IMG/VR virus record: IMGVR_UViG_3300031456_000017
Location: 1-25,734 of that record
DNA length: 25,734 nt
DNA from: a virus
Reading direction: 5' to 3' (one strand)
The notes under the pieces were generated by a model. The model worked only from the letters and a program-made list of their open reading frames with translations. It searched no databases and was not told where the DNA came from. The position numbers were made by a program, and so were the translations under genes. The first letter of the stretch is position 1. Each line of letters starts with the position of its first letter. Below, in pieces: positions 2,831 to 17,906 of this stretch.

Positions 2831-2938
2831 ATGCAGTCAGTCCTCGAATTCGGAGGGTCGGTGATCAACGCGGCCGTCTTCGTCTACCTGGCCGACGAGC
2901 TCACCACGCTCCTACGCACCCTCCGCAGCTACCTGTGA
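2831..2938 (+). CDS. 35-residue hydrophobic protein, unknown function
   Basis: A short gene whose ATG follows a strong GAAGGAGA ribosome site (2816-2823) by 7 bases and whose stop overlaps the next gene's GTG as GTGA. Those two signals are the main reason to believe it. The product starts MQSVLEFGGSVINAAVFVYL. Residues about 10-29 are mostly hydrophobic, though interrupted by Asp and Glu, so it could be a short membrane or amphipathic peptide. The C-terminus carries two Arg (LLRTLRSYL). It has no recognised family. Position between terL and a secreted protein, in the same operon, suggests an envelope-related role (inference). Confidence 0.6.
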   Translation: MQSVLEFGGSVINAAVFVYLADELTTLLRTLRSYL

Positions 2939-3606
2939 AGCGCTGGCTGCTCGGCCCGCTCGTTGTCGTGGCGCTGCTGGCTCTGACCGCCCCCGCGCTG
3001 GCCGGATCCTGGCACCGAGACCACCGTCATGATGATCATGCTCGAGCACATAATGCCTGGTCAGAGGCCCGTTGGGACGACAGCGACGAGTCTGATTACG
3101 ACGATGAGGACAGCTCCGATGATGAGGATTCTGACTCGGAGGACGAAGACTCGGCCGACTCCAGTGACTCCCCGGTGGTGGTCGATCCGGCGCCCGTGGT
3201 CACCGGCTCCGAGAAGAGCATCCAGGCCGAGCTGACCGGCTACTCCTACCAGGACAACACGCCACCCGGCAGCGCGGACATCTGCTGCCCGCAGCTGCAC
3301 CAGAAGGCCGGCGGCCAGGGCACCTACGAGGACCCGATCACGACCGCCGTGGCCTCCAGCTCGTTCCCGCCTGGCACCCGGTTCTACGTCCCGCCGATCA
3401 AGCGCTACGTGATCGTCGAGGACTCGGGCGCCAGCGACGGACAGAACCACCTGGACATCTGGGTCGGCGGCCAGGGACACAGCAAGGGCGACTCCGACGC
3501 CTGCATGAACTCCTTCACCGGCAGCCACCAGATCATCCAGAACCCCGGCCCCGACCACCCTGTCACCGCAGGCGAGCTCACCACGGCCGGCGGATGCAAG
3601 ATCTGA
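2935..3606 (+). CDS. Secreted acidic protein with double-psi beta-barrel-like domain
   Basis: A 223-residue predicted exported protein. Residues 1-23 form a classic signal peptide: KR n-region, Leu/Val core and an ALA|G cleavage site. A His/Arg-rich stretch (27-39) is followed by a very acidic Asp/Ser/Glu tract (about 48-79) and a Pro/Val linker. Residues about 95-223 resemble RlpA/expansin-type double-psi beta-barrels and 3D domains: TGYSYQDNTPPG, AGGQGTYEDPITTAVAS, PPGTRFYVPP, then VEDSG...HLDIWVGG with D163, D168 and D174. Four Cys (117, 118, 190, 221) may form disulfides outside the cell. Some relatives of this fold act on cell wall; others inhibit papain-like proteases. The GTG start overlaps the upstream stop. 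This is not a known packaging or virion protein, so moron-type cargo is likely. Confidence 0.7.
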   Translation: MKRWLLGPLVVVALLALTAPALAGSWHRDHRHDDHARAHNAWSEARWDDSDESDYDDEDSSDDEDSDSEDEDSADSSDSPVVVDPAPVVTGSEKSIQAELTGYSYQDNTPPGSADICCPQLHQKAGGQGTYEDPITTAVASSSFPPGTRFYVPPIKRYVIVEDSGASDGQNHLDIWVGGQGHSKGDSDACMNSFTGSHQIIQNPGPDHPVTAGELTTAGGCKI

Positions 3607-3694: not shown

Positions 3695-4672
3695 ATGACT
3701 GTCCCCGTGCTGAATGGCCACCGCCTCGGCCGCAAGGCCTACGACCGCACCAAGCCGAACGTGATGCTGCGCCGGCTGCGCACCGCGACGCTGACCCCGC
3801 CACCGCAGAGCGACTGGTGGTGCGACGCGATGGCCACCATGGCGCTGAACGACCGGATCGGCGACTGCACCATGGCGGACCAGGCCCACTCGCTGACCGG
3901 GCTGCAGTTCTACGGCCAGGCCAAAACTATCGTGGTGCCGGACTCCGAGGTGCTCAAGGGCTACTCGGCGATCAGCGGCTACGACCCGAAGACCGGCCGC
4001 AACGACAACGGCGCGACGCTGCAGGACGCCTTCGGCTACGCGCGCAAGACCGGCTTCGTGGTCGCCGGCGCCACCTACCGCACCGAGGCCTTCGCGCAGC
4101 TCGACGCGATCGACTCGCGCGGCAACGTCGACTGGGACCTGATCAAGGTTGGCATCGACTCGTTCGGTGGCGCCTCGATCGGCATGATCTTCCCAGACTT
4201 CGCCATGGACGACTTCGACGCCGGCCGGACCTGGGACTACAACCCCCGCAAGCGCTACCGCGAGTCCGGCGGGCACGACGTGCGGCTGGTCGGCTTCGGT
4301 GGCTCGGGCCTCGGCGCCTACATCGACTGCGCGACGTGGGGCCGCAAGCAGCGCATGACCGTCGCGTTCGCCGAGAAGTTCATTGAGGAGTACTGGGTCC
4401 ACGGCGAGAAGGACTGGCAGCGCGCCGACGGCACCGTCCCCAACGGTATCGACGCCGACTCGGCGAAGGCGCAGTTCATCGCGCTGACCGGCGAGACCGG
4501 CGACCCGGGCTGGGACTCCCCCGACGTACCCCCGGTAGTTGTGCCGCCGATCGACCCGCCGCCTCCGGTCACCGAGGACGCGGACGCCCAGCTGGCCGAC
4601 GCCTACGACCGCACGCCGATCACCGAGTTCTCGACCGCGTTCAACATCTGGCGCGCCGGTAAGGGACTCTGA
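3695..4672 (+). CDS. Papain/C39-like cysteine peptidase family protein
   Basis: A 325-residue protein with the landmarks of a papain-fold peptidase: LNDRIGDCTMA places Cys58 at a helix start as nucleophile, GGHDVRLVGF supplies His194, and CATWG (T214-W215-G216) sits where papain-like enzymes have NSWG. Related bacterial and phage proteins show the same GDC, GGH and TWG order. A Pro-rich linker (about 279-292) leads to a short C-terminal tail. No signal peptide is visible. Substrate is unknown; candidates are cell-wall peptides, a host protein or phage proteins. ATG 3695 follows GGAGG at 3679-3683; an in-frame GTG at 3659 lies upstream of that site and is less likely. It is not a typical prohead protease and lies apart from the capsid genes. 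Confidence 0.65.
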   Translation: MTVPVLNGHRLGRKAYDRTKPNVMLRRLRTATLTPPPQSDWWCDAMATMALNDRIGDCTMADQAHSLTGLQFYGQAKTIVVPDSEVLKGYSAISGYDPKTGRNDNGATLQDAFGYARKTGFVVAGATYRTEAFAQLDAIDSRGNVDWDLIKVGIDSFGGASIGMIFPDFAMDDFDAGRTWDYNPRKRYRESGGHDVRLVGFGGSGLGAYIDCATWGRKQRMTVAFAEKFIEEYWVHGEKDWQRADGTVPNGIDADSAKAQFIALTGETGDPGWDSPDVPPVVVPPIDPPPPVTEDADAQLADAYDRTPITEFSTAFNIWRAGKGL

Positions 4673-4674
4673 TC

Positions 4675-4791
4675 ATGACGGGACTGTTCCGGTGGCTCGG
4701 CGACTGGCGCCGGCGTCGCGCCGAGCTCCGGAACAGTCCCGGTCGCCAGCTGCGCCGCGCCGCACTCCAACGACGTAAGGATCCGAAGTGA
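4675..4791 (+). CDS. 38-residue Arg-rich protein, unknown function
   Basis: A short gene with AAGGGA (4661-4666) 8 bases before ATG, ending in a GTGA overlap with the portal start. The product begins MTGLFRWLGDWRRRRAELRN and remains strongly basic (about 12 Arg), so nucleic-acid or membrane-surface binding is possible. The reading frame lies over a large perfect inverted repeat (4680-4740), so the sequence may be kept for its RNA/DNA structure rather than the peptide. The translation signals favour a real gene, but the evidence is only moderate. Confidence 0.45.
   Translation: MTGLFRWLGDWRRRRAELRNSPGRQLRRAALQRRKDPK
4680..4740. repeat. 61-base inverted repeat (13 bp + 8 bp perfect stems)
   Basis: GGGACTGTTCCGG (4680-4692) and CCGGAACAGTCCC (4728-4740) are perfect reverse complements. 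Just inside, GCTCGGCG (4695-4702) and CGCCGAGC (4719-4726) pair perfectly, separated from the outer stem by a 2x1 internal loop. The apical loop is 16 bases. Neither side has a T-run, so it is not a standard intrinsic terminator. It could be an mRNA processing or stabilising hairpin upstream of the portal gene, or a protein-binding or recombination site. Confidence 0.8.
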
Positions 4792-6341
4792 CGACGCTGA
4801 GCGGCCTCTCTGAGCTGTCCGAGATCGTGCAGGACGTGCTGCTACCCAAGCACCGCCAGGAGTGCACGCGGCTGCACTGGATCGACCGCTGGTACCGCTG
4901 GAAGCACGAGCCGGTACCGCTGCCCCGCAAGGCGTCGACCGAGCTGCGCGCGCTGGCGAAGCTGTCGCAGACCCCGTGGCTCGGGCTGGTCGTGACCTCG
5001 ACGGCGCAGTGCCTGTTCGTGGACGGCTACCGCAGCGCGCTCGACCCGGTCGGGGACCCGGCGGAGGTCAACGCGCAGTTGCAGCGCAGTCCCGACGACC
5101 CGATCCCGCCGGTGGTGGACAAGCCGATCGTCCCCGAGGGGCCGTGGCGGATCTGGATGGCCAATCAGATGGACAAGCGGCAGGCGGCGCTGCACCGCGC
5201 GGCGCTGGCCTACGGCTACTCCTACTCCACTGTGCTGCCCGGCGAGGACTTCACCGGGGAGGTCATGCCGGTGATCCGGGGCAAGAGCCCCCGCAAGTTC
5301 TACGCCGTCTACGAAGACCCGGCGTTCGACGACTGGCCCGAGTACGCCCTCGAAGAGCTCGACAACGACGGCTCGATCCAGCGGTTTAAGGTGTTCGACG
5401 ACCAGAACGTCTACACCGTGCGGCTGTCCTCGAAGAACAGCACGGGCACCGGCGACAAGCCGCGCTTCGAGCTGGAGGACACCGAGCGGCACGGCGCCGG
5501 AGTCTGTCCCGTGGTGCGCTACGCCAACGAGCTGGATCTCGACGGCAGGACTCCGGGCGAGGTCGAGCCGCACATCGCACTGGCCCGGCGGATCAACAAG
5601 ACCAGCTACGACCGGCTGCTCGTGCAGCACTTCAACAGCTGGAAGATCCGCTGGATCGCGGGCATGGCCGAACCGGACAGCGAGGAGTCGGCAACCCGGG
5701 CGAAGCTGAAGCTCGCGCAGGACGACTTCCTGATCGCGGCCGACGCCGACACCAAGTTCGGCTCGTTCCCGGAGACCGGCCTGGGCGGCTTCATCGAGGC
5801 ACACGAAGCCGACGTCGAAGCGCTCGCCGCCGTCACCCAGACCCCGACGCATGAGCTCACCGGCAAGATGGTCAACCTCTCGGCGGAAGCGCTGGCCGCC
5901 GCGCGCGCGAGCCAGAGCCAGAAGGTCGACGAGCGCAAGCGCAGCTTCGGTGGATCGCACACCCAGTCGCTGCGCCTCGCCAGCTCGTACCTCGGCGATG
6001 AGAAGCACGCCAAGGACATCACTGGCCGGGTGACCTGGCAGGACACCTCGATCCGCTCGATCGCTCAAGCCGTCGATGCGCTGGGCAAGGCCGCGACGAT
6101 GCTGCACGTGCCGGATGAGGCGCTCTGGGGCCGCATCCCCGGCGTCGAGAAGTCCGATGTCGAAGAGTGGAAGCGCATGGCGAAGCTACAGGACCCCCTG
6201 GAGCAGATGCAGTCCAACCTCGATCGACAGGCCGAGGCGCAGAAGCTCGCGTCGAAGGGCGTGCCGGGCGATCAGTCGAGCTCCGCGAACGGCACCGCGC
6301 CGAAGCCGAAGGCGTCTGTCACCGCGAAGCCGGCGGGCTGA
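4788..6341 (+). CDS. Portal protein (SPP1 gp6-like)
   Basis: A 517-residue portal, the dodecameric ring at one capsid vertex through which DNA enters and leaves and to which terminase and connector proteins dock. The N-terminal helical region, the wing segment (PWLGLVVTSTAQCLFVDGYR), the KINKTSYDRLLVQH-type helix around residues 265-290 and the clip/crown pattern VEALAAVTQTPTHELTGK with LSAEALAAARASQSQKVDERK match gp6-like actinophage portals. The C-terminus is charged and low-complexity. GTG 4788 overlaps the upstream stop (GTGA). The stop shares a base with the MuF ATG (TGATG), implying translational coupling and defined stoichiometry. Confidence 0.93.
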   Translation: MTTLSGLSELSEIVQDVLLPKHRQECTRLHWIDRWYRWKHEPVPLPRKASTELRALAKLSQTPWLGLVVTSTAQCLFVDGYRSALDPVGDPAEVNAQLQRSPDDPIPPVVDKPIVPEGPWRIWMANQMDKRQAALHRAALAYGYSYSTVLPGEDFTGEVMPVIRGKSPRKFYAVYEDPAFDDWPEYALEELDNDGSIQRFKVFDDQNVYTVRLSSKNSTGTGDKPRFELEDTERHGAGVCPVVRYANELDLDGRTPGEVEPHIALARRINKTSYDRLLVQHFNSWKIRWIAGMAEPDSEESATRAKLKLAQDDFLIAADADTKFGSFPETGLGGFIEAHEADVEALAAVTQTPTHELTGKMVNLSAEALAAARASQSQKVDERKRSFGGSHTQSLRLASSYLGDEKHAKDITGRVTWQDTSIRSIAQAVDALGKAATMLHVPDEALWGRIPGVEKSDVEEWKRMAKLQDPLEQMQSNLDRQAEAQKLASKGVPGDQSSSANGTAPKPKASVTAKPAG

Positions 6342-7267
6342 TGGCGAGCACCGAGGACGGTCGCCGACTGACCGAGACGCACCGCCTCGCGCAGGTCGAG
6401 CTCCAGGCTCAGTTCCTCCGGGAGTTCATCCCGACGTGGCGGCTGATGAGCTGGGTCAAGATCGACGAGGTGTCGCAGGCCTGGCTCGCGGCGGTCATGC
6501 CGATCATCAGGAAGTGGCGCCAGGAGTCCGCTGACGTCGCGGAATCGTATTACGACCGGTACCGTAAGGTAGAAGTACCACGATCATCTACGACGGCGCC
6601 TCCGGTCGAGTTCCTGCATGCTCCCGAGGTACGTGGTCACCGCGAGCCAGACTCTCCTGTCGTCGACCTCAACGAACGTCGTCGATCACGGACGCGGATC
6701 AGGCTGCCGGAGGACCGGGACCAGAGCGGTTGGGTCACGCCTAAGATCGACTGGTCGCAGTACGACGACTCGGCGCTGAAGGCGCTGCGCGGCGCCGGCC
6801 CGAATTACCTCAAGCAGCAGGCCGGGCGCGGCGAGACCGAGCAGCGCGCCATGGCCAAGGGGCTGCAGGTCGTCTCCGGTACCGGGGTCAAGCAGGTGCT
6901 CGACGGCGGCCGGGACACGATCTTGGAACTGATTCGCTCCGATCCCTCGGTCACCCGCTACATCCGCGTGACCGACGGCGACCCGTGCGCGTTCTGCGCG
7001 ATGCTGGCCAGCCGGGGCCCGGTCTACGAGACCGCCGAGTCGGGCGGCTTCCTCGCGCACCCCTCGTGTGCCTGCACCGCCGAGCCAGTGGTCGTGGCCG
7101 GCGGCGCGTGGCCCGGTCAGGCCGCCTACTACAAGCGACTCTGGCGCGCGAACATCGAGAACCGCTACTCCGGCCGGGACGCGATCAACGCCTGGCGCCG
7201 TCTCTACACCGACCTGCAGCGGGAGACGAAGCGCCAGTCGTTGGCCTCTGACCAGCGGCTGGCTTAG
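6341..7267 (+). CDS. MuF-like minor capsid protein
   Basis: A 308-residue MuF-type protein, usually co-packaged with the portal and in some phages involved in capsid maturation. The N-terminal half is helical; residues about 75-125 form an Arg/Pro-rich linker of lower G+C (about 53% over 6541-6600 by hand count). The conserved C-terminal core carries CAFC (C216, C219) and HPSCAC (H240, C243, C245), a likely zinc-binding cluster typical of actinophage MuF proteins. The ATG at 6341 overlaps the portal stop; longer in-frame extensions run inside portal and are rejected. The stop TAG overlaps the stop of the antisense nuclease gene by 3 bases (tail-to-tail). Confidence 0.88.
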   Translation: MASTEDGRRLTETHRLAQVELQAQFLREFIPTWRLMSWVKIDEVSQAWLAAVMPIIRKWRQESADVAESYYDRYRKVEVPRSSTTAPPVEFLHAPEVRGHREPDSPVVDLNERRRSRTRIRLPEDRDQSGWVTPKIDWSQYDDSALKALRGAGPNYLKQQAGRGETEQRAMAKGLQVVSGTGVKQVLDGGRDTILELIRSDPSVTRYIRVTDGDPCAFCAMLASRGPVYETAESGGFLAHPSCACTAEPVVVAGGAWPGQAAYYKRLWRANIENRYSGRDAINAWRRLYTDLQRETKRQSLASDQRLA

Positions 7268-7887
7268 CACCAGATATGGCGCCGGCAGAACCGCGACTTG
7301 TGGTTGTCGCCGTGCGGGATCGGCACCGGGATGTAGGTGTGATCGTCGCTCGGAGCTGACGCCACCACCGCGCCGGCACAGTTACGGCCGCCCGAATCGA
7401 GGCTGCGCAGGTTGGCCACGTACTCGGGGCTGGCGTCGTTCTTCCCGGCGTACACCGCTGTGTGGTCGTAGGTGACCATCAGCTCGCCGAAGTCACCGCC
7501 AGCGACCCGCACGTAGCGCAGCAGCCGACCATAGCGATCCTTGTCCGGAGCACCCGGCTGCGAGCGCAACGACACGCCATCGGTCAGCAGCAGCTCGGCG
7601 GTCGCCTTGGCCTCCGCGCCGCCGACCGTCGACATCTCGCAGGAGTCGATGCCGAGCACCCGGATCCGCTGACCGGTGTCGATGTCGAACGTGTCGCCGT
7701 CGATCACCTTCGTCACCGTGCGGTTCGCCTCGTCCACGTTGAAGCCGGGCCCGTAGGCGATTCGCTCGGCGGGCGTCATCTCCTGCTCAGCGCTGTGCGC
7801 GGCAACGGATACGACCGGGCGCTCGGAACTGCCGCAGCCGGCGACCACGAAGGCCACCACCGCAACGCCGAGCCACATTTTTCTCAT
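7264..7887 (-). CDS. Staphylococcal-nuclease-like lipoprotein
   Basis: A 207-residue protein on the opposite strand to all its neighbours. The N-terminus MRKMWLGVAVVAFVVAGC is a lipoprotein signal with lipobox VAGC (lipidated C18), so the mature protein should sit on the outer face of the membrane. Residues about 57-165 are a thermonuclease (SNc) domain with all key positions: VIDGDTF (D63), RIRVLGID (R76, D81), E84 and DRYGRLLRYV (R121). It should be a Ca-dependent DNA/RNA nuclease. The His/Cys-rich C-terminus (NHKSRFCRRHIWC) is unusual. Start is ATG at 7887; no Shine-Dalgarno is seen, and CATCCT ends 7 bases upstream, compatible with a weak leaderless promoter. The opposite orientation and non-virion function mark it as a moron. 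Confidence 0.88.
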   Translation of the reverse strand: MRKMWLGVAVVAFVVAGCGSSERPVVSVAAHSAEQEMTPAERIAYGPGFNVDEANRTVTKVIDGDTFDIDTGQRIRVLGIDSCEMSTVGGAEAKATAELLLTDGVSLRSQPGAPDKDRYGRLLRYVRVAGGDFGELMVTYDHTAVYAGKNDASPEYVANLRSLDSGGRNCAGAVVASAPSDDHTYIPVPIPHGDNHKSRFCRRHIWC

Positions 7888-8670: not shown

Positions 8671-9924
8671 GTGGCTAACAGCTACCTGAAGGCAGAGAAG
8701 ATCGCGGCCACCGCGCTCGGCCTTCTGCAGCGCGAGATCGTGCTGCCCGGACTCGTGTGGAAGGACGCCGGCGGTTCGTTCGTCGGTGCCGCCGGCGACA
8801 CGATCACCATGCGCGTGCCCGCCCGTACGCAGGCCCGCTCCCGCACGCTGCGGGGCGCTCGCGGACTCGCGTCCGAGGGCACCGGCATCATCCAGATGGA
8901 TGAACTGACCGAGCACAGCGTCGACGTGACGCTGGACGAGGCCATCTACTCCGCGATCCCGGTCACCGATGAGGAGCTCACGCTCGACATCAACGACTTC
9001 GCGGCACAGATCCTCGCTCCGCAGGTGCGTGCCGTCGCCGAGGGCCTGGAGAACAAGCTGGCCGCCGAGATGGTGGGCGCCACCTACGCCAACACGGTGA
9101 CCATCCCCCGCGCCAAGCTGGCCGGCACCAACACCGACAGCTCGAACACCTACGACGTGTTCCGTGGACTGGCCCAGGTCCGCAAGTACATGAACGTCTC
9201 CAACCTGCCGCAGAACGACCGCATCATCGTGGTCGGGGCGGACATGGAGGAAGCGTTTTTGAACGACCCGCACCTGAACCGCTTCGATGGTTCCGGTGAC
9301 TCGGGCCCCGGCTCGGCGCTGCGGGACGCGACCCTCGGACGCATCGCCGGCTTCAACCAGGTGATCGTCAGCAACGCACTGCCGGCCGCCTTCGGTGTCG
9401 CGTTCCACCGCACCGCCTTCGTGCTGAACCTCCAGGCTCCGGTTGTTCCGAGCGGCGTGCCGTTCGGCTCGAACCAGAGCTTCGAGGGTCTGGCGATGCG
9501 GTACATCAGGGACTACGACTTCCGGAACGTGCAGGACCGGGGCATGGTCGACCTGTACTGCGGCACCAACACCGTCGTTGACGGCCTGGTGTCCGAGGTT
9601 CAGACCCTGACCCCGACCGGCACGATCTCGGGTGGCACCTTCACCCTGACTTGCCGTGGGTACACCACGTCGGCGCTGCCTTTCAACGCCACCGCCGCTG
9701 CCATCGCCGCCGCGCTGAGCGCCCTCCCGGGTGTCTTCGCCACGGCGACCGGTGGGCCGATCAGCACCACGGCGGTCGTGGTCACGTTCACCGACTCTGG
9801 CGATGTTGCCCAGCTGGTTGTGAACAGCTCCCTGACCGGCACCTCGCCGGTCGTCACGCCCACCACCACCACGAGCGGCGCGCCCACCTTCGTGCGGGCC
9901 ATCAAGCTGGCTCTGGCTGCCTGA
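8671..9924 (+). CDS. Major capsid protein (P22-coat type) with C-terminal decoration-like domain
   Basis: A 417-residue coat protein. Residues 1 to about 305 match the P22 coat/gene 5 family of HK97-fold proteins: N-terminal helix (KAEKIAATALGLLQREIVLP), TITMRVPARTQARSRTLRG, VDVTLDEAIYSAIPVTDEE, then a spine-like helix and the A-domain region with FRNVQDRGMVDLYCGT. From E309 on, a separate beta-rich domain begins (EVQTLTPTG, GGTFTLT, FNATAAAIAAAL, VVVTFTDSG, TTTTSG); the same domain ends the tail tube protein. GTG 8671 follows CTAGGAGG by 8 bases. A strong hairpin follows the stop. Confidence 0.92.
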   Translation: MANSYLKAEKIAATALGLLQREIVLPGLVWKDAGGSFVGAAGDTITMRVPARTQARSRTLRGARGLASEGTGIIQMDELTEHSVDVTLDEAIYSAIPVTDEELTLDINDFAAQILAPQVRAVAEGLENKLAAEMVGATYANTVTIPRAKLAGTNTDSSNTYDVFRGLAQVRKYMNVSNLPQNDRIIVVGADMEEAFLNDPHLNRFDGSGDSGPGSALRDATLGRIAGFNQVIVSNALPAAFGVAFHRTAFVLNLQAPVVPSGVPFGSNQSFEGLAMRYIRDYDFRNVQDRGMVDLYCGTNTVVDGLVSEVQTLTPTGTISGGTFTLTCRGYTTSALPFNATAAAIAAALSALPGVFATATGGPISTTAVVVTFTDSGDVAQLVVNSSLTGTSPVVTPTTTTSGAPTFVRAIKLALAA

Positions 9925-9930
9925 GTTGTA

Positions 9931-9963
9931 GCTGCCGGCCGCTCGAATCGAGTGGCCGGCAGC
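9931..9963 (+). terminator. Strong hairpin after major capsid gene
   Basis: GCTGCCGGCC (9931-9940) pairs perfectly with GGCCGGCAGC (9954-9963). Inside, a G-T pair and CTCG/CGAG extend the stem to 15 pairs closed by an AAT loop. The stop of the capsid gene is 6 bases upstream. Only a short, weak T-tract follows (TTCT), so partial termination or 3'-end protection of capsid mRNA is more likely than complete termination. Downstream genes are collinear and probably need read-through. Confidence 0.7.
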
Positions 9964-9991
9964 TTCTACCTGCTCGGAGGAGGTGAATTAC

Positions 9992-10276
9992 ATGTCGTAC
10001 GAATTCAAGGTTGAACAGTTCGTGGTCGGCACCACTCCGGTAAAGATCTTGGACGGATTTCTAGCTCCAGAAGGCGCGACGGTCTCCATTCGCTCCACGG
10101 GCAGTGCTATCGGCCTCGGGGGGTCAACCGTGACTAAGGCGGCCGGCTGGGACCCGAGCAACGAGCCTTCGGCGTATCACTTGACGGCTTACGAACCGGC
10201 GGACCTCTACGCAGTTACCGCTTCTGGAACGGCCACAGTCACGGTGCTCCATCACGTCTCTGAGGAAGTCTCGTGA
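9992..10276 (+). CDS. Small beta-rich protein after capsid, unknown function
   Basis: A 94-residue protein with a very strong GGAGGAGG ribosome site (9976-9983). It starts MSYEFKVEQFVVGTTPVKIL and shows alternating hydrophobic residues of a beta-sandwich (ATVSIRSTGSAIGLGG, LYAVTASGTATVTVLHHV). Similar short proteins often follow the capsid gene in actinophages and may be decoration or head-completion proteins, but I cannot assign one. G+C is about 60% over 260 bases by hand count, lower than flanking genes by eye, with different codon choices (GAA, GTT, TCT), a mild hint of separate origin. The stop overlaps the next GTG (GTGA). Confidence 0.75.
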   Translation: MSYEFKVEQFVVGTTPVKILDGFLAPEGATVSIRSTGSAIGLGGSTVTKAAGWDPSNEPSAYHLTAYEPADLYAVTASGTATVTVLHHVSEEVS

Positions 10277-10761
10277 CTGATGTGAATCTCCCCCCGCTGG
10301 CGACTGTCCACGATCTCGAACTGCGGATGAAGCGGACTTTCGACACGAACGACGATCTGAACGAGGCGGAATCGGCGCTCGACGAAGCGTCGGAGATCGT
10401 CCGCGAGGAATCCCGCAACACCTGGGTCTCGCCGGAAGACTCGACGATCGTCACCGCGCCTCGAATCGTCAAGATCATCGTTCTGCGGGTGGCCGAGCGG
10501 AAGCTTCGCAACCCCGACGGCCTGAGCTCCGAAACCGCTGGCGACTACTCGTATCAGCGCAACGGAGTCGGCCCGGACGGCGGCTTGTACCTGACTCCCT
10601 GGGAAGTCCAGGTGCTGCACCGCCAGGCCGGCATGACCGGTCTCTGGACGCAGCCGGTCACTCGCGGGGACACCTACTGCGACCGGGTCTTCTTGGAGGA
10701 CTCGTTCGGCTGCGAGCTGTTCCCGGTCGGCGACGTCGGCGTCTTCCCGTACTACGACTGA
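10273..10761 (+). CDS. Head-tail connector (adaptor) protein
   Basis: A 162-residue protein in the position of gp6/gp15-type adaptors, which form the ring below the portal. The N-terminal half is helical (ATVHDLELRMKRTFDTNDDL, ESALDEASEIVREESR), followed by VTAPRIVKIIVLRVAERKLRNP, a pattern typical of these adaptors. The C-terminal half is loop-rich with DYSYQRNGVGPDGGLYLT and aromatic end FPYYD. GTG 10273 overlaps the upstream stop. Assignment is from helical pattern, gene order and length. Confidence 0.78.
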   Translation: MTDVNLPPLATVHDLELRMKRTFDTNDDLNEAESALDEASEIVREESRNTWVSPEDSTIVTAPRIVKIIVLRVAERKLRNPDGLSSETAGDYSYQRNGVGPDGGLYLTPWEVQVLHRQAGMTGLWTQPVTRGDTYCDRVFLEDSFGCELFPVGDVGVFPYYD

Positions 10762-10777
10762 AGGCGGTGGGCGAGTC

Positions 10778-11149
10778 GTGGCTTTGACCAGCAGCGGACC
10801 GCACACCGTCACGATCTACGTGCAGGAAGAGACGACCGACTACCAGGGCAACCCGGTCAAGCGGCCGAGCACTACCGGCGTGGTGGTCAGGGGTTGCTGG
10901 ATGCAGCCACTGGCCAGCACGCGGGGCGCCTTCGCCGCCCGGAAGGTCGACGCCGGTCAGGACGAGTCGGTGGCCTGCAAGTTCATCTGCTCGCCGGCCA
11001 GCGCGCCACTGGGTTGGTGGTCTCGCGTCGAGTGGTTCGACCCGGACCTGGGTCGACTGCGCAAGTTCGCGGTGCTCGGCGGCCCGATGCCGCGCAACTT
11101 CTCGGCCGCCACCAACCACCTGTCCTGCACCCTCCAGGAGATCCTCTGA
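10778..11149 (+). CDS. Head-tail stopper-like protein
   Basis: A 123-residue beta-rich protein in the slot of stopper proteins that close the connector after packaging. It reads HTVTIYVQEETTDYQGNP, GVVVRGCWMQPL, then WWSRVEWFDPDLGRLRKFAVLGGP: beta strands around a turn, as in SPP1 gp16-like stoppers. GTG 10778 is preceded by AAGGCGGTGGG. The stop shares one base with the next ATG (TGATG). Function is inferred mainly from order in the head-tail block. Confidence 0.7.
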   Translation: MALTSSGPHTVTIYVQEETTDYQGNPVKRPSTTGVVVRGCWMQPLASTRGAFAARKVDAGQDESVACKFICSPASAPLGWWSRVEWFDPDLGRLRKFAVLGGPMPRNFSAATNHLSCTLQEIL

Positions 11150-11472
11150 TGGCCAAGGTCAAGTTCGCCTGGGGTCCGGGGATGAACGCCCGGAAGTGCA
11201 ACAGGGTCGCGGCGTATCACAAGGAAACCGGCTTCGCGCTGAAGCGGGCCTCCAACGAGCTGTACGCCCGCGCGCGACGCAAGCTCGCGGCACACCACCA
11301 CTCCGGTGACGCCGAGATCTCGCTGACGCACGGCAAGCTCGACTACTTCGTCAACCTCGACGACAAGCATCGTGCCGGCGGCCCGGCGGCGGCGGCCATC
11401 GAGTTCGGCCACGTCGCCAAGAACGGCCGCTTCATCGAAGGCGCTCACGCGCTGACCGGCGGGCTGCGGTGA
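11149..11472 (+). CDS. Neck protein, DUF5403-like
   Basis: A 107-residue basic protein. The helical N-terminus (TGFALKRASNELYARARRKL), the beta segment ISLTHGKLDYFVNLDD and the end AAAAIEFGHVAKNGRFIEGA resemble DUF5403 proteins of actinophages, which occupy the HK97-gp10-like neck/tail-completion slot between stopper and tail terminator. ATG 11149 overlaps the upstream stop; the longer open frame upstream lies within the stopper gene and is rejected. The GTGA junction with the next gene indicates coupled translation. Confidence 0.75.
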   Translation: MAKVKFAWGPGMNARKCNRVAAYHKETGFALKRASNELYARARRKLAAHHHSGDAEISLTHGKLDYFVNLDDKHRAGGPAAAAIEFGHVAKNGRFIEGAHALTGGLR

Positions 11473-11951
11473 GGTCAGAGGCAGGTCGTGCCGCCCCGTT
11501 CGTGGATGGCATGGGCGTGCAGCTCTGGATCTTGCGCAACACGCTCGCCGACATGCGCGAGGCGGAAGGGCTGCGGCCGGTTGAGGTGATGTCCAACCTC
11601 AACGACGAGCTCTCCAACCACATCCCACTGGTCAAGATCCAACGCACCGGCGGCGCGAGCGACCATCCCCGGTTCACCACCCAGTTCTGGATGAACTACC
11701 AGGTCTGGTGCGACGCCGAGCCGAGCCGGGACTGGGACCCGCGCCAGGCGACCTTCGAGCTGGCCAACCAGGTAGCCCGATCCCTCGTGATCGCCACCGA
11801 GAACCAGATCGTCACCCCGTACGGATCTATCGCCAAGTGGCGCGAGTCGACCGGGTTCCGTCAGTTCGACGACCCGGACCTTCCGCACATTTCGAGGCAG
11901 GTCGCCACCTACGACTTGCTGATTCGAAACCTCAGAACCCCGCGTTCCTGA
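11469..11951 (+). CDS. Tail terminator protein
   Basis: A 160-residue protein just upstream of the tail tube gene, the normal place of tail terminators, which cap the tube and join it to the head. It has a helix near the N-terminus (LWILRNTLADMREAEG), then IPLVKIQRTGGASDHPRFTT and FWMNYQVWCDAEPSRDWDPR followed by a helix (FELANQVARSLVIA), matching the alpha-beta pattern of the family (lambda gpU/SPP1 gp17 type). GTG start overlaps the upstream stop by 4 bases. A 63-base gap with a GAGAGGA site precedes the tube gene. Confidence 0.75.
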   Translation: MRSEAGRAAPFVDGMGVQLWILRNTLADMREAEGLRPVEVMSNLNDELSNHIPLVKIQRTGGASDHPRFTTQFWMNYQVWCDAEPSRDWDPRQATFELANQVARSLVIATENQIVTPYGSIAKWRESTGFRQFDDPDLPHISRQVATYDLLIRNLRTPRS

Positions 11952-12014
11952 TCCATCCATCCGACCCGGTGCCGCGCTCTCCGGGATGTGTCTGCTCCCC
12001 TGAGAGGACTGACC

Positions 12015-12872
12015 ATGGCTCTCGATGATGCCGCAGTCATCATCCCCGGTACCGGTTACGTGTTCGTCGCGCCGGCCGGAACCGCTGCCCCCGCAAGCAA
12101 GACCGACCCCGGCTCCCCGTGGCGCGATCTCGGCCACACGTCGATTGACGACGGTCTGACGATCACCAAGGACGGTGGCGACAGCAACATCCTCGGCACC
12201 TGGCGTAACCCGGCCCTCCGGGACCGCCGCGACCCGGTGGTGTTCGCCCTGACGATCCACCTGCTGCAGCTGTCCAACGACACGCTGAGCATGTACTTCG
12301 GCGTCGGCGACACCACGGTCGACGGGGTGTTCGGTGTCGCGCTGATCCCGACCCCGGTCGAGCTGGCGATGTTCGTCCGCATCGTCGATGGCGCCAACGA
12401 GATGCAGGTCTACCTGCCCAAGGTCTCGGTCGGCTCCGATGACGACGTCGAGGTCGATGTCGAGAACTTCCTCGCCTTCCCGGTGCGCGCCACGATCCTG
12501 GGCATCACCGGTTCGGCGCTGATGGAGTTCTACGGCGACGACCTGGGCCTGCGTACCGCCGAGGTGCAGTCACTGGCCATCACCGGCGTCCCCACCGGCG
12601 GCACGTTCACGCTGACCCTCGACGGCGACACCACGGCGGCCATCGCCTACAACGCGGCGGCCTCGGCTGTGCAGTCCGCGCTGCGGCTCCTGGACACCCC
12701 GTTCGCCGACGGCGTCGTCTGCTCCGGCGGCGCGCTGCCGGCAGTCCCGGTCGTGATCACGTTCGCTGCCGATCTGGCGGACAACAACGCGCCGTTGATG
12801 ACCGCGACCGGTTCCTTCACCGGTGGCACCTCCCCGGCCGCTGCGGTCACCACGACCACGCCCGGCTCCTGA
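12015..12872 (+). CDS. Major tail (tube) protein with C-terminal decoration-like domain
   Basis: A 285-residue tube protein that polymerises around the tape measure. Residues 1 to about 178 form the tube core (GTGYVFVAPAGTAAP, WRDLGHTSIDDGLTITKDGG, ALTIHLLQLSNDTLSMYFG, MQVYLPKVSVGSDDDVEVDV, FPVRATILGITGSALMEFYG), a standard actinophage tube pattern. Residues 183-285 are an added beta domain (EVQSLAITGVPTGGTFTLT, IAYNAAASAVQSALRLL, PVVITFAADLADN, TTTTPGS), homologous to the end of the capsid protein. ATG 12015 follows GAGAGGA (12002-12008). A 13-bp perfect hairpin follows the stop. Confidence 0.9.
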   Translation: MALDDAAVIIPGTGYVFVAPAGTAAPASKTDPGSPWRDLGHTSIDDGLTITKDGGDSNILGTWRNPALRDRRDPVVFALTIHLLQLSNDTLSMYFGVGDTTVDGVFGVALIPTPVELAMFVRIVDGANEMQVYLPKVSVGSDDDVEVDVENFLAFPVRATILGITGSALMEFYGDDLGLRTAEVQSLAITGVPTGGTFTLTLDGDTTAAIAYNAAASAVQSALRLLDTPFADGVVCSGGALPAVPVVITFAADLADNNAPLMTATGSFTGGTSPAAAVTTTTPGS

Positions 12873-13958: not shown

Positions 13959-16900
13959 GTGAGCAGCCCCGGCGGTCAGGAGGTCGCACGGATCTCGGTC
14001 CGAGTTTTACCGGACACGAGCGGATTTGCGCAGAAGCTCAAGTCTGAGCTCTCGAAGATCAACGAGCAAGTCGTCGTCGAGGTCAACTTCGACATCGACG
14101 TCGCCGGCCTGATCGCCGCGCTCGAATCACTGAAGTTGCCCAAGGTCGTTGTCCCGGTCGACTTCGAGGACGTCCGCGACGCCAAGATCCAGGTGGGCGC
14201 CGACACCACGACCGCCAAGACTGAGGTCGACAAGACGGTTGCCGAGACCAACGCCAAGAAGGCGACGGTCAAGGTAGAGGCCGATACCAAGGCGTTCGAG
14301 AAGATCAAGCTCGAAGCGCTGATGAACAACGTCACGCTGAAGGCGAAGCTCGAAGCGGACACCACGGCGTTTCTCGCGCAGGTCGAAACGGCCAAGCTTG
14401 CGGCGGAGAAAATCGGCCACGTCAAGATCAAGCTGGAGACCGACCGCACCTGGCTCGCCACGATGGCCAATGAGGTCGAGAACGTCGCCGGCAAGGTCTC
14501 CGGGCTGCTGGGCTCCGCGATGAGCGGAGTCGCTTCGATCGGCGGCACCCTCGCGGGCAACTGGGAGAAGATCTCCGGCACGGTCTCCAGCGTCGCCGGT
14601 GGGGTCCTGACCATCGCGGGGTACACGGCGGCCGGGATCGGCATTGTCGACGTGCTCGCGGCGGCCTGGGGACTGGTCTCGACCGCTGTGCTCGCGGTGC
14701 CGGCCGCCATCGCCTTGATCGGTGCCCCGATCGGTGCCATCGCGCTCGGCATGGACGGGATCAAGAAGGCGGCCAAGACCTTGGAGCCGGCCTTCAAGTC
14801 GCTGAAGACGGCGGTCTCCGACACCTTTGCCAAGCAGCTTGTGCCGGCGTTCAACACCCTGAAGGCCGTGATGCCCACGGTGCAGACGGGCATGGTGGGC
14901 ATCGCCTCGGCGCTCTCGACGATGGCGCAGGGCCTGGCGAAGTTCCTCGCCTCCGCGCAGGGCACCTCGCTGATCGCTACGACGCTCGCCAACGTGAAGC
15001 AGGCGCTGCTCGGCATTCAGCCCGGCATCACCGGCCTGGTCGATGGCTTCCTGCGACTGACCGCCACCAAGTCGGCGTTCGACGCGCTGTCCAAGGTGAT
15101 CAACACCGTGGGCACCGGCTTCGATGCCATGGTCAACAACCTGGCGCGGGTCGACACGCTCGACCAGGCGTTCCAAGGTCTCGGCGACGTGGTCTCCTCG
15201 CTCGCGCAGGGCTTTCTCGACCTGCTGGAGAACGGGGTCAAGGCCTTCTCCGGCATGGCGCCCGGCCTCGACTCCTTCGTGCAGTCGGTGACCAAGTTCT
15301 TCAACAAGTTCGACTGGAAGAAGATCGGTTCCGACATCGGTGGGGCCTTCAAGGGCATCGGCGATGCGATCAAGAACGTGCCGCAGTCGACCATCGATGC
15401 CATCGCCAAGGGGTTCTCCGACCTCAACAAGACGATGAACGACCCGGGTGTGCAGCTGTTCATCCAGGACGTCATCAGCCTGATTCCCTCGGCGATCCAG
15501 CTGGTAAATGATCTTGTCTCCGCCTTCGGCACCATGGAGACGATCGACCAGACGGTGCAGACGGCGATGCAAGGCGCGCACGATGCCATCGCCAACTGGT
15601 CGACGACGACCGAGGCCGACATCCAGGGCTGGGTGCAGCGGACGCACGACGCCATCGCCAGCTGGTCGACCACCGCCGACGCCTCGCTTCAGACCGGCCT
15701 GCAGTCGATGCACGACTCGATCGCTCAGTGGTCGACCGATACCGAGACGACGATTCAGACCTGGGTGCAGTCGACGCACGACTCGATCGCCACCTGGTCA
15801 GACGGCCTCGACGCGTCGATCAACGGCGGTCTGCAGGCGATGAACGACGCGATCACCACTTGGTCGACCGATACCGAGGCGACGATCCAGGGCTGGGTGC
15901 AGTCGACGCACGACTCGATCGCCAGCTGGTCCCAAGGCCTGGACACCGACATCAACACCGGGCTGCAGGCGGTGCACGACTCGATCGCGCAGTGGTCGAC
16001 CGATACCGACGCCACGATCCAGGCCTGGGCGCAGGGCACGCACGACAAGATCGTTGCCTGGTCCGACGGACTCGACGCCGATATCAACGGTGGCCTGACA
16101 AAGGCAAACGAATCGATCACCAAGTGGTCGCAGGACACCGACAAGACGATCAACGACTGGGCACAGTCGACCCACGACAAGATCGCCGAGTGGGCCAAGG
16201 GCGTGCTCGCGGACATCAAGTCGGGGCTCTCGGGGCTACCTGGCCTGGTAGAGAGCCTGTTCGGCAAGACCGCGCCCGCCGCCGCCAAGGGGCTGGGCGG
16301 CACCTCGACGGCGGTAGGCACCGAGATGAAGGTGGTCAACGCCGCCTTCACCACCCCACTCGACGCACTGCCCGGAGACGTCGACACCTCGATGACCGGG
16401 GTCGACACCGCGATCACCGGACCACTCGACCCGGTCGCCGCTCAGGTCGCCGCGTCGATGACCGGGATCTCGGGCGCCGTGTCCACCGGCCTCACTCCGA
16501 TCCCTGGACTGTTCGCTACGGCATTCACCGGTCTCGGTGTGAGCGCGACCGCCGGAATGCTGTCCATCCAGCAGTCGGTGAACACAGGCTTCGTCGGGAT
16601 TCAGGCCGCTTTCACCGCCGGATTCGCGCTGCTGACGACCAACGTCGCAGTCGCGTTCACCAACCTCGCCGCTCTGGTCGTGACGCCCGGAATGTTGGCC
16701 ATGCAACTGGCCGTGACGACCGGCTTCGTCGGCATCCAGGCAGCCTTCACCGCCGGGTTCGCGCTGCTGACGACCAACGTCGCGCTGTCGTTCACCAACC
16801 TGGCCGCGCTCGTCGTCACCCCGGGCATGCTGGCCATGCAGTTGGCGGTCACGACCGGCTTCGTCGGGATTCAGGCCGCTTTCACTGCCGGCTTCGCACT

Positions 16901-17906
16901 CCTGACCACCAACGCGGCCCTGGCGTTCACTAACCTCGCGGCGCTCGTTGTGACCCCCGGAATGCTGGCCATGCAGTTGGCGGTGACCACCGGGTTCATC
17001 GGTATCCAGGCCGCCTTCACCGCCGGCTTCGCGCTGCTGACTACCAACGTGGCGCTGGCGTTCGTCAACCTCGCCACGTTGGTCGTGACCCCCGGAATGC
17101 TGGCCATGGCACTGGCGGTCACCACCGGGTTCATCGCTATTCAGCTAGCCTTCACGACCGGTTTCGCATTGCTGACCACCTCGATCGCACTGGCCTTCAC
17201 CAACATCGCCACGCTGGTTGTGACGCCCGGCATGCTGGCCATGCAGCAGGCCGTGACCACCGGATTCATCGGCATCAACGCCGCTATGGTCGCCGGAATG
17301 GCTGGCCTCGCAGCAGCTGTTACCGCCGGCCAGCAGCCGATCGTCGATGCCTTCGTCGCCATGGCCAACGCGGTACTCGACGTCTGCGACATGTTGATCG
17401 ACGCCATGACCACGGTCGGCAACAACATGATGATCTCTCTGGCGAACGCGATCATCGCCGGAGAGTCGACGGTGGTCAACGCCATCGCCCAGGTGATCGC
17501 GGCGGCTATCGCCATGGCCACCTCGATGCTCGGCATCGCGTCACCCTCGAAGGTGTCCGGCGAGTGGGGCGACATGACCGTCGCCGGCTTCGCCAACAGC
17601 GTGCTCGCGGGCAAGAACACCGTGGTCAGCGCCATGGAGTCCACCTTCGGCGCGGCCGTCGATGCCGGTCAGGCGGTTGTCGATGCGGGGGTCGCCGGCG
17701 TCGGTGGCGCGATGCAGGAGATGGCGTGGGTCGCCACCACGAACAAGGCGCTCTCGACGACCTCCAACGATGAGCTGCAGTCCGGCTCCGGAGTCACGAA
17801 CGTCTGGAACATCTCCGCGCTGCCCTCGGCCACCGCAGCGCAGCTGGCCAACCAAGTCGTCTACCAGACCAAGTACGCGCGCAAGGGTGTCCACAGTGGG
17901 AGGTAG
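13959..17906 (+). CDS. Tail tape measure protein
   Basis: A 1315-residue tape measure, the longest gene here; its length sets tail length and it is ejected into the host with DNA. Order of parts: N-terminal beta/coiled region (KVEADTK, KAKLEADTTAF), hydrophobic membrane-like segments around residues 210-265, helical centre, ten exact 22-residue Trp-containing repeats (541-760), a stretch with ASMTGISGAVSTG-like elements, five 45-residue hydrophobic repeats plus a partial sixth (867 to about 1111), then a C-terminal region with MLGIASPSKVSGEWG, the SPSK motif common in tape measures. GTG 13959 follows GGGAGGGG (13944-13951). No lytic transglycosylase or peptidase domain was recognised. Confidence 0.94.
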   Translation: MSSPGGQEVARISVRVLPDTSGFAQKLKSELSKINEQVVVEVNFDIDVAGLIAALESLKLPKVVVPVDFEDVRDAKIQVGADTTTAKTEVDKTVAETNAKKATVKVEADTKAFEKIKLEALMNNVTLKAKLEADTTAFLAQVETAKLAAEKIGHVKIKLETDRTWLATMANEVENVAGKVSGLLGSAMSGVASIGGTLAGNWEKISGTVSSVAGGVLTIAGYTAAGIGIVDVLAAAWGLVSTAVLAVPAAIALIGAPIGAIALGMDGIKKAAKTLEPAFKSLKTAVSDTFAKQLVPAFNTLKAVMPTVQTGMVGIASALSTMAQGLAKFLASAQGTSLIATTLANVKQALLGIQPGITGLVDGFLRLTATKSAFDALSKVINTVGTGFDAMVNNLARVDTLDQAFQGLGDVVSSLAQGFLDLLENGVKAFSGMAPGLDSFVQSVTKFFNKFDWKKIGSDIGGAFKGIGDAIKNVPQSTIDAIAKGFSDLNKTMNDPGVQLFIQDVISLIPSAIQLVNDLVSAFGTMETIDQTVQTAMQGAHDAIANWSTTTEADIQGWVQRTHDAIASWSTTADASLQTGLQSMHDSIAQWSTDTETTIQTWVQSTHDSIATWSDGLDASINGGLQAMNDAITTWSTDTEATIQGWVQSTHDSIASWSQGLDTDINTGLQAVHDSIAQWSTDTDATIQAWAQGTHDKIVAWSDGLDADINGGLTKANESITKWSQDTDKTINDWAQSTHDKIAEWAKGVLADIKSGLSGLPGLVESLFGKTAPAAAKGLGGTSTAVGTEMKVVNAAFTTPLDALPGDVDTSMTGVDTAITGPLDPVAAQVAASMTGISGAVSTGLTPIPGLFATAFTGLGVSATAGMLSIQQSVNTGFVGIQAAFTAGFALLTTNVAVAFTNLAALVVTPGMLAMQLAVTTGFVGIQAAFTAGFALLTTNVALSFTNLAALVVTPGMLAMQLAVTTGFVGIQAAFTAGFALLTTNAALAFTNLAALVVTPGMLAMQLAVTTGFIGIQAAFTAGFALLTTNVALAFVNLATLVVTPGMLAMALAVTTGFIAIQLAFTTGFALLTTSIALAFTNIATLVVTPGMLAMQQAVTTGFIGINAAMVAGMAGLAAAVTAGQQPIVDAFVAMANAVLDVCDMLIDAMTTVGNNMMISLANAIIAGESTVVNAIAQVIAAAIAMATSMLGIASPSKVSGEWGDMTVAGFANSVLAGKNTVVSAMESTFGAAVDAGQAVVDAGVAGVGGAMQEMAWVATTNKALSTTSNDELQSGSGVTNVWNISALPSATAAQLANQVVYQTKYARKGVHSGR
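15579..16238 (+). repeat. Ten 66-bp tandem repeats in tape measure gene
   Basis: Each unit encodes 22 residues starting with HD or N(D/E) and containing (S/A)I..W(S/A), for example HDSIAQWSTDTETTIQTWVQ. Unit starts are at 15579, 15645, 15711, 15777, 15843, 15909, 15975, 16041, 16107 and 16173, with no insertion or deletion. Units alternate in type (W-Q-T against GL-Q), so the real period may be 132 bp, five times. Confidence 0.9.
16557..17290 (+). repeat. 135-bp tandem repeats in tape measure gene (five plus partial)
   Basis: Units begin at 16557, 16692, 16827, 16962, 17097 and 17232 (partial). Each encodes 45 residues beginning ML(A/S)(M/I)Q and containing TTGF(V/I)GIQAAFTAGFALL, then VVTPG before the next unit. 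The register is exact. Units are alike at DNA level but carry many synonymous changes, which points to old duplication with purifying selection. Confidence 0.9.

Follow-up and report, generated by a model that had tools for sequence, protein, structure and literature searches.

A module shared by the coat and tail tube proteins of an actinophage-like siphovirus, probably a mobile display domain of the Bxb1 type

The stretch analysed here, called the window, is the complete IMG/VR record IMGVR_UViG_3300031456_000017 (25.7 kb; 25,734 nucleotides), which is probably itself a fragment. Two of its structural genes carry the features considered below.

8671..9924, + strand: major capsid (coat) protein, 417 aa; body residues 1-305, matching PF11651 P22_CoatProtein (E 9.6e-15)
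9592..9885, + strand: shared module in the coat protein, residues 308-405, between the body and its last strand; matches the tube module by BLASTP
9886..9921, + strand: final strand of the coat body, TFVRAIKLALAA, residues 406-417; its FVRA(V/I)K is kept in relatives with or without the module
12015..12872, + strand: tail tube protein, 285 aa; body residues 1-180, matching PF25681 Phage_TTP_17 (E 2.5e-50)
12555..12869, + strand: shared module in the tube protein, residues 181-285, a C-terminal extension; structural match to the Bxb1 major capsid protein

The tube reading frame is open from a GTG at 11988 and most likely starts at the ATG at 12015. Searches against PHROG assigned the coat to phrog_283 (major head protein, E 3.5e-55) and the tube to phrog_117 (major tail protein, E 9e-45). 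The nearest solved structure to the coat body is the Douge gp8 MCP (E 4.2e-56), and the Douge capsid was also the best match of the coat model (VIA Z 21.0), in a comparison that matched the body and did not treat the module separately. The Pfam assignments, P22_CoatProtein (HK97-type) for the coat and Phage_TTP_17 for the tube, place the two bodies in unrelated families, as a preliminary description of this DNA had held.

The same description regarded the module as C-terminal in both proteins. This is right for the tube, where relatives lacking the module end a few residues past the body. The coat module is inserted and does not form a C-terminal domain, because a conserved last strand (FVRAIKLALA), predicted by AlphaFold at residues 406-415, comes after it. 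Coat relatives without the module retain the residues that flank its site: in these proteins (e.g. L032, L034, L039, L043 and L045) D or DG leads by way of a short acidic linker to FVRAVK or FVRAIK and the protein end, and in module-bearing coats the module is placed between DG and FVRAVK. The codon of residue E309, where the coat module had been said to begin, lies at 9595-9597 and not at 9598.

Several lines of evidence show that coat and tube carry the same domain of about 100 residues. Their distal regions align by BLASTP over 106 residues with 42% identity and 58% positives (E 5e-10), and the motifs that had been picked out by eye are present in this alignment. A profile built from tube modules only gave the coat module 59.9 bits, far above the 8.5 bits reached by the best of 1000 coat-module shuffles. 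A search of the other window ORFs with the module profile found no further copy. Both modules are in frame without an alternative stop, so every coat and every tube subunit should carry one, in agreement with the earlier expectation.

Structure prediction, proposed as a check when the likeness was first noticed, gave the same arrangement for both modules. AlphaFold models were made of the full-length coat (37 homologues) and the full-length tube (26 tube rows and a further 26 of the module only). The coat module consists of strands at residues 308-316 and 321-328, a helix at 342-350 and strands at 357-361, 369-373, 383-389 and 394-402. The tube module has strands at 183-190 and 195-202, a helix at 216-224 and strands at 234-238, 246-250, 263-269 and 275-282. 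The order of two strands, helix and four strands is thus common to the two, with nearly equal lengths, and in both models a helix of 9 residues separates strand 2 from strand 3. In the coat module block-mean pLDDT was mostly 84-94, with a single block at 71; the tube module reached 92-98 apart from one block at 70 and the last at 78. A PDB search superposed tube residues 180-284 with two solved structures: the Bxb1 major capsid protein at residues 305-397 (Z 11.9, rmsd 2.1 A over 91 residues, 32% identity) and the minor capsid protein gp22 of Patience at residues 101-187 (Z 10.9, 2.1 A over 86 residues). That a tube module should match the capsid module of another phage, Bxb1, is direct evidence for a shared module. 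Membership of an Ig-like family (Big_1, Big_2, FN3 or I-set) was considered and rejected at the level of sequence: neither coat nor tube matched any Ig-like Pfam family at E up to 10, in a search where the MiniMac tube control matched Big_2 at 8.8e-11. An NCBIfam search likewise gave no match.

Among close relatives the module can be missing from one of the proteins or from both while the body is intact. This distribution indicates an addition to two proteins whose folds are unrelated, as proposed earlier. The relatives were gathered with module- or coat-based queries and their frequencies are therefore biased; with this reservation, the coat carries the module in 28 of 39 coat relatives. Where both states could be read (33 coat relatives), 13 have it on both proteins, 10 on the coat only, 10 on neither and none on the tube only. 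Homologous prophage-like loci lie mostly in Actinomycetota. On the coat-body tree the coat module requires at least 8 changes and the tube module at least 2. A test of correlated gain on this tree found two pairs in agreement, none against and three uninformative, and it did not reach significance because only five independent pairs were available. Homologous coats exist in three states, with no module, with the shared module or with Big_2, and in the named phages compared from the coat-homologous set coat and tube are in matching state; Streptomyces phage Attoomi, for example, has neither module nor Big_2, with a capsid of 304 aa and a tube of 188 aa. Since many relatives do without the module, any benefit that it brings must be conditional.

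How the two copies arose can be approached through the module tree, in which carriers are intermixed. The window coat module groups with the coat modules of relatives (support 100/95) and the tube module with tube modules (100/94). Separate captures by coat and tube are the favoured reading of these sequences. The alternative is a recent copying within the phage lineage, which the presence of both copies in one genome would fit. It is opposed by the best tree, which separates coat from tube modules, and by the identities, 42% between the window's own coat and tube modules against 91% between the coat modules of the window and of its relative L003. A tree in which coat and tube modules from the window, L003 and L004 fall together loses 19.8 log units against the best tree, yet the AU test does not reject it (p 0.165); separate capture is accordingly preferred but unproven, and we consider recent copying unlikely.

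The sharing of a module between head and tail has already been published for related phages, as has most of the interpretation first given for this window; in view of the Pope, Freeman and Douge papers neither is new. Capsid and tail subunits with common extensions were described in LeBron, with earlier work cited for Wildcat and Bxb1 (Pope 2011). The closest parallel is mycobacteriophage Bxb1 (PDB 9d9w, 9d93), whose capsid and tube extensions are 47% identical (Freeman 2021, PMC8704799). Both can be deleted and both are strongly immunogenic, preliminary structural data place the capsid extension outside the shell, and the function was stated as unknown in 2021 (PMC8704799). The likeness to the window is one of sequence homology (profile A1 matches gp23 at E 3e-48, gp14 at E 9.6e-9 and gp19 at E 7.3e-7) and of arrangement: Bxb1 has one module each on capsid gp14 and tube gp19, the predicted fold of the window tube module matches that of the Bxb1 capsid module, and the tube bodies are homologous, with PF25681 in both. 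Each virus has a capsid and a tube copy, and close relatives of the window can lack the module. The capsid bodies differ, however, that of Bxb1 being PF05065 Phage_capsid with a C-terminal module and the window coat being of the P22_CoatProtein type with the module before the last strand, and Bxb1 has several further copies on the gp23 tail-tip cage where the window has no extra copy. We note that the product line of gp14 in the Bxb1 record (L126, NC_002656, Bxb1p14, 4658-5851) reads 'major tail protein', an annotation error, as the record's own note and the solved structure identify the capsid subunit.

In the cluster L mycobacteriophages Douge, LeBron and MiniMac coat and tube also carry one common surface domain, and the coat body is homologous to that of the window; in MiniMac the capsid domain has 51% identity to the tube domain over 67 residues. 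Here the domain is Big_2 (MiniMac tube E 8.8e-11; capsid E 0.0016, below the cut-off) and does not match the window module profile. Its attachment differs too, the MiniMac Big_2 domain coming after the final coat strand (FVRAVELQL), in the same order as in the Douge alignment, whereas the window module precedes that strand. The Ig-like domains on the Douge coat and tube bind M. smegmatis and not E. coli; they also bind LAM/AM and alpha-glucan fragments, with 919 domains per virion (Douge 2025, PMC13033339). The extra domain of Patience gp22 (PDB 8giu) superposes on the window tube module, but its carrier is a separate decoration-type protein and the sequence similarity is marginal (E 0.14). 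Ig-like domains elsewhere (Fraser et al. 2006; lambda gpV, T5 pb6, SPP1 gp17.1*) resemble the window module in lying at the end of tube proteins, where such domains face outward and weak binding of cell-surface carbohydrate has been proposed (PMC8718954). They have Ig, FN3 or Big folds, in contrast to the window module, with its predicted helix after the second strand and its lack of a Big or Ig match in Pfam. What is new here is the same module family on a different shell protein, a P22-type coat, at a different attachment point. New also are the coats with no module, the shared module or Big_2, the patchiness among relatives and the unrelated capsid, tube, sheath and decoration carriers.

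These carriers were typed in the best 80 loci of an IMG/VR scan with the module profile, together with the loci found earlier. Among the matches listed, the module is borne by the P22-type coat, the phrog_117 tube and at least about 33 other body clusters, a number of which are small or untyped. Tube carriers in this set belong to phrog_117, 476, 792 and 2491 and to the minor-tail/tube family phrog_290 (PF18906), and other typed carriers comprise the tail sheath phrog_23, the head decoration protein phrog_3583 and, as a weak match, the head-tail adaptor phrog_442. The capsid-protein carriers are P22-type (phrog_283), phrog_777 and the PF05065 type of Bxb1, whose tail-tip cage also carries the family. 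A true sheath carrier (L049:3915-6584, phrog_23) has three module copies in its N-terminal half; three other candidate sheaths (L017, L021 and L026) were rejected as divergent tail tubes of phrog_476. The core pattern is conserved across more than 80 module copies. An artificial consensus module found no match in the phage collection by tblastn, a search in which a natural module does match.

Pairing of head and tail recurs outside the P22-type set. In phages with a phrog_2491 tube, where the capsid is of the lambda-E type (PF03864) in the 3 typed, the module count is exactly two in all 7 of the 7 checkable records, the tube carrying one copy and the other lying within the phrog_3583 head decoration protein. 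Nocardia and Pseudonocardia loci have paired module proteins of about 500-840 aa and about 370 aa, typed by size only. The P22-type and lambda-E-type sets obey a strict rule by which a tube module implies a head module, but Microbacterium phage Gina breaks it, having the module on its tube (phrog_792) and no detectable head module on other ORFs within the 18 kb examined. This tail-only case and the ten coat-only cases mean that display on both proteins is not required. Large module proteins occur in Planctomycetota, with ORFs ranging from about 600 to over 2700 residues and one to six or more copies each (L146, L148, L152, L154, L167, L168, L182, L190 and L193).

Taken together, we think it probable that this actinophage-like siphovirus carries a mobile, non-essential display module of the Bxb1 type on its coat and tube, with weak multivalent attachment as its most likely job. 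The coat module would sit on a loop just ahead of the last body strand and the tube module at the C-terminus, so outward projection from every capsomer and tube subunit is to be expected. The module would lie outside the assembly machinery. For this phage we infer the projection and a probable copy number of several hundred over the virion surface, made up of 415 on the head if T=7 and those of the tube. Such copies could make multivalent weak contacts with the host surface or with nearby surface polymers, and the whole virion might stick or slide until the tail tip meets its receptor. That the module is adhesive in this phage, and that it is non-essential here, we infer, the first by analogy with Douge and the second from Bxb1. 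Glycan binding, which had been proposed for this window at first, would in particular be an extrapolation from the Big_2-type domains of Douge, which are unrelated and of a different family.

Two other accounts of the module seem to us improbable. Decoration proteins often stabilise capsids, and the fold of the module is also seen in accessory proteins bound to the capsid (Patience gp22 and the phrog_3583 decoration proteins), as would suit modules that clamp adjacent subunits and so stabilise head and tail. Many homologous coats and tubes lack the module, however, it is used on heads and tails alike despite their different neighbours, and the 'peanut-like' extra domain of Patience is absent from the otherwise similar minor capsid protein of Adjutor. 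The viability of Bxb1 deletions on both proteins (PMC8704799) makes stabilisation, which had been suggested for this window, less likely. With no greater probability, the module could be a promiscuous domain without a selected common function, spread by illegitimate recombination and tolerated at exposed loops and ends, as its very patchy distribution with many gains or losses, the mixing of carriers in the module tree and its dispensability in Bxb1 (PMC8704799) might suggest; against this, its typed carriers are virion surface components and not random phage proteins (in a sample picked by module score), the core pattern has been kept, and the pairing of head and tail recurs.

Weak multivalent attachment thus remains our preferred reading of the module, and if it is adhesive the head would take part in host finding. 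One may speculate, and we do so with some doubt, that lineages with a tail module usually show the same family on whichever head protein is exposed, be it the capsid or a decoration protein, the families (the shared module or Big_2) being swapped pairwise. If this were true, the entire virion surface would be selected as an adhesive coat. A single coat body found with no module, the shared module or Big_2 offers a natural comparison set for the benefit of a coated virion. More generally, a little-studied module resolved in Bxb1 is now placed more widely, on unrelated capsid, tube, sheath and decoration proteins and in large planctomycete proteins.

Three other genes of the window deserve mention. 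Between the terminase-like and portal genes, 2935-3606 (+ strand) encodes a secreted protein that includes an acidic linker and matches a 3D domain weakly (E 0.0038, below the cut-off). At 7264-7887, running against the structural operon on the - strand, lies a short gene for a predicted lipoprotein (lipobox VAGCGSS), whose weak match to staphylococcal nuclease (SNase, E 0.0024) falls below the Pfam cut-off; the gene may be cargo of the phage. Within the tape measure gene (13959-17906, + strand) are two tandem arrays, at 15572-16187 and 16547-17284, with units of 132 bp and 135 bp.
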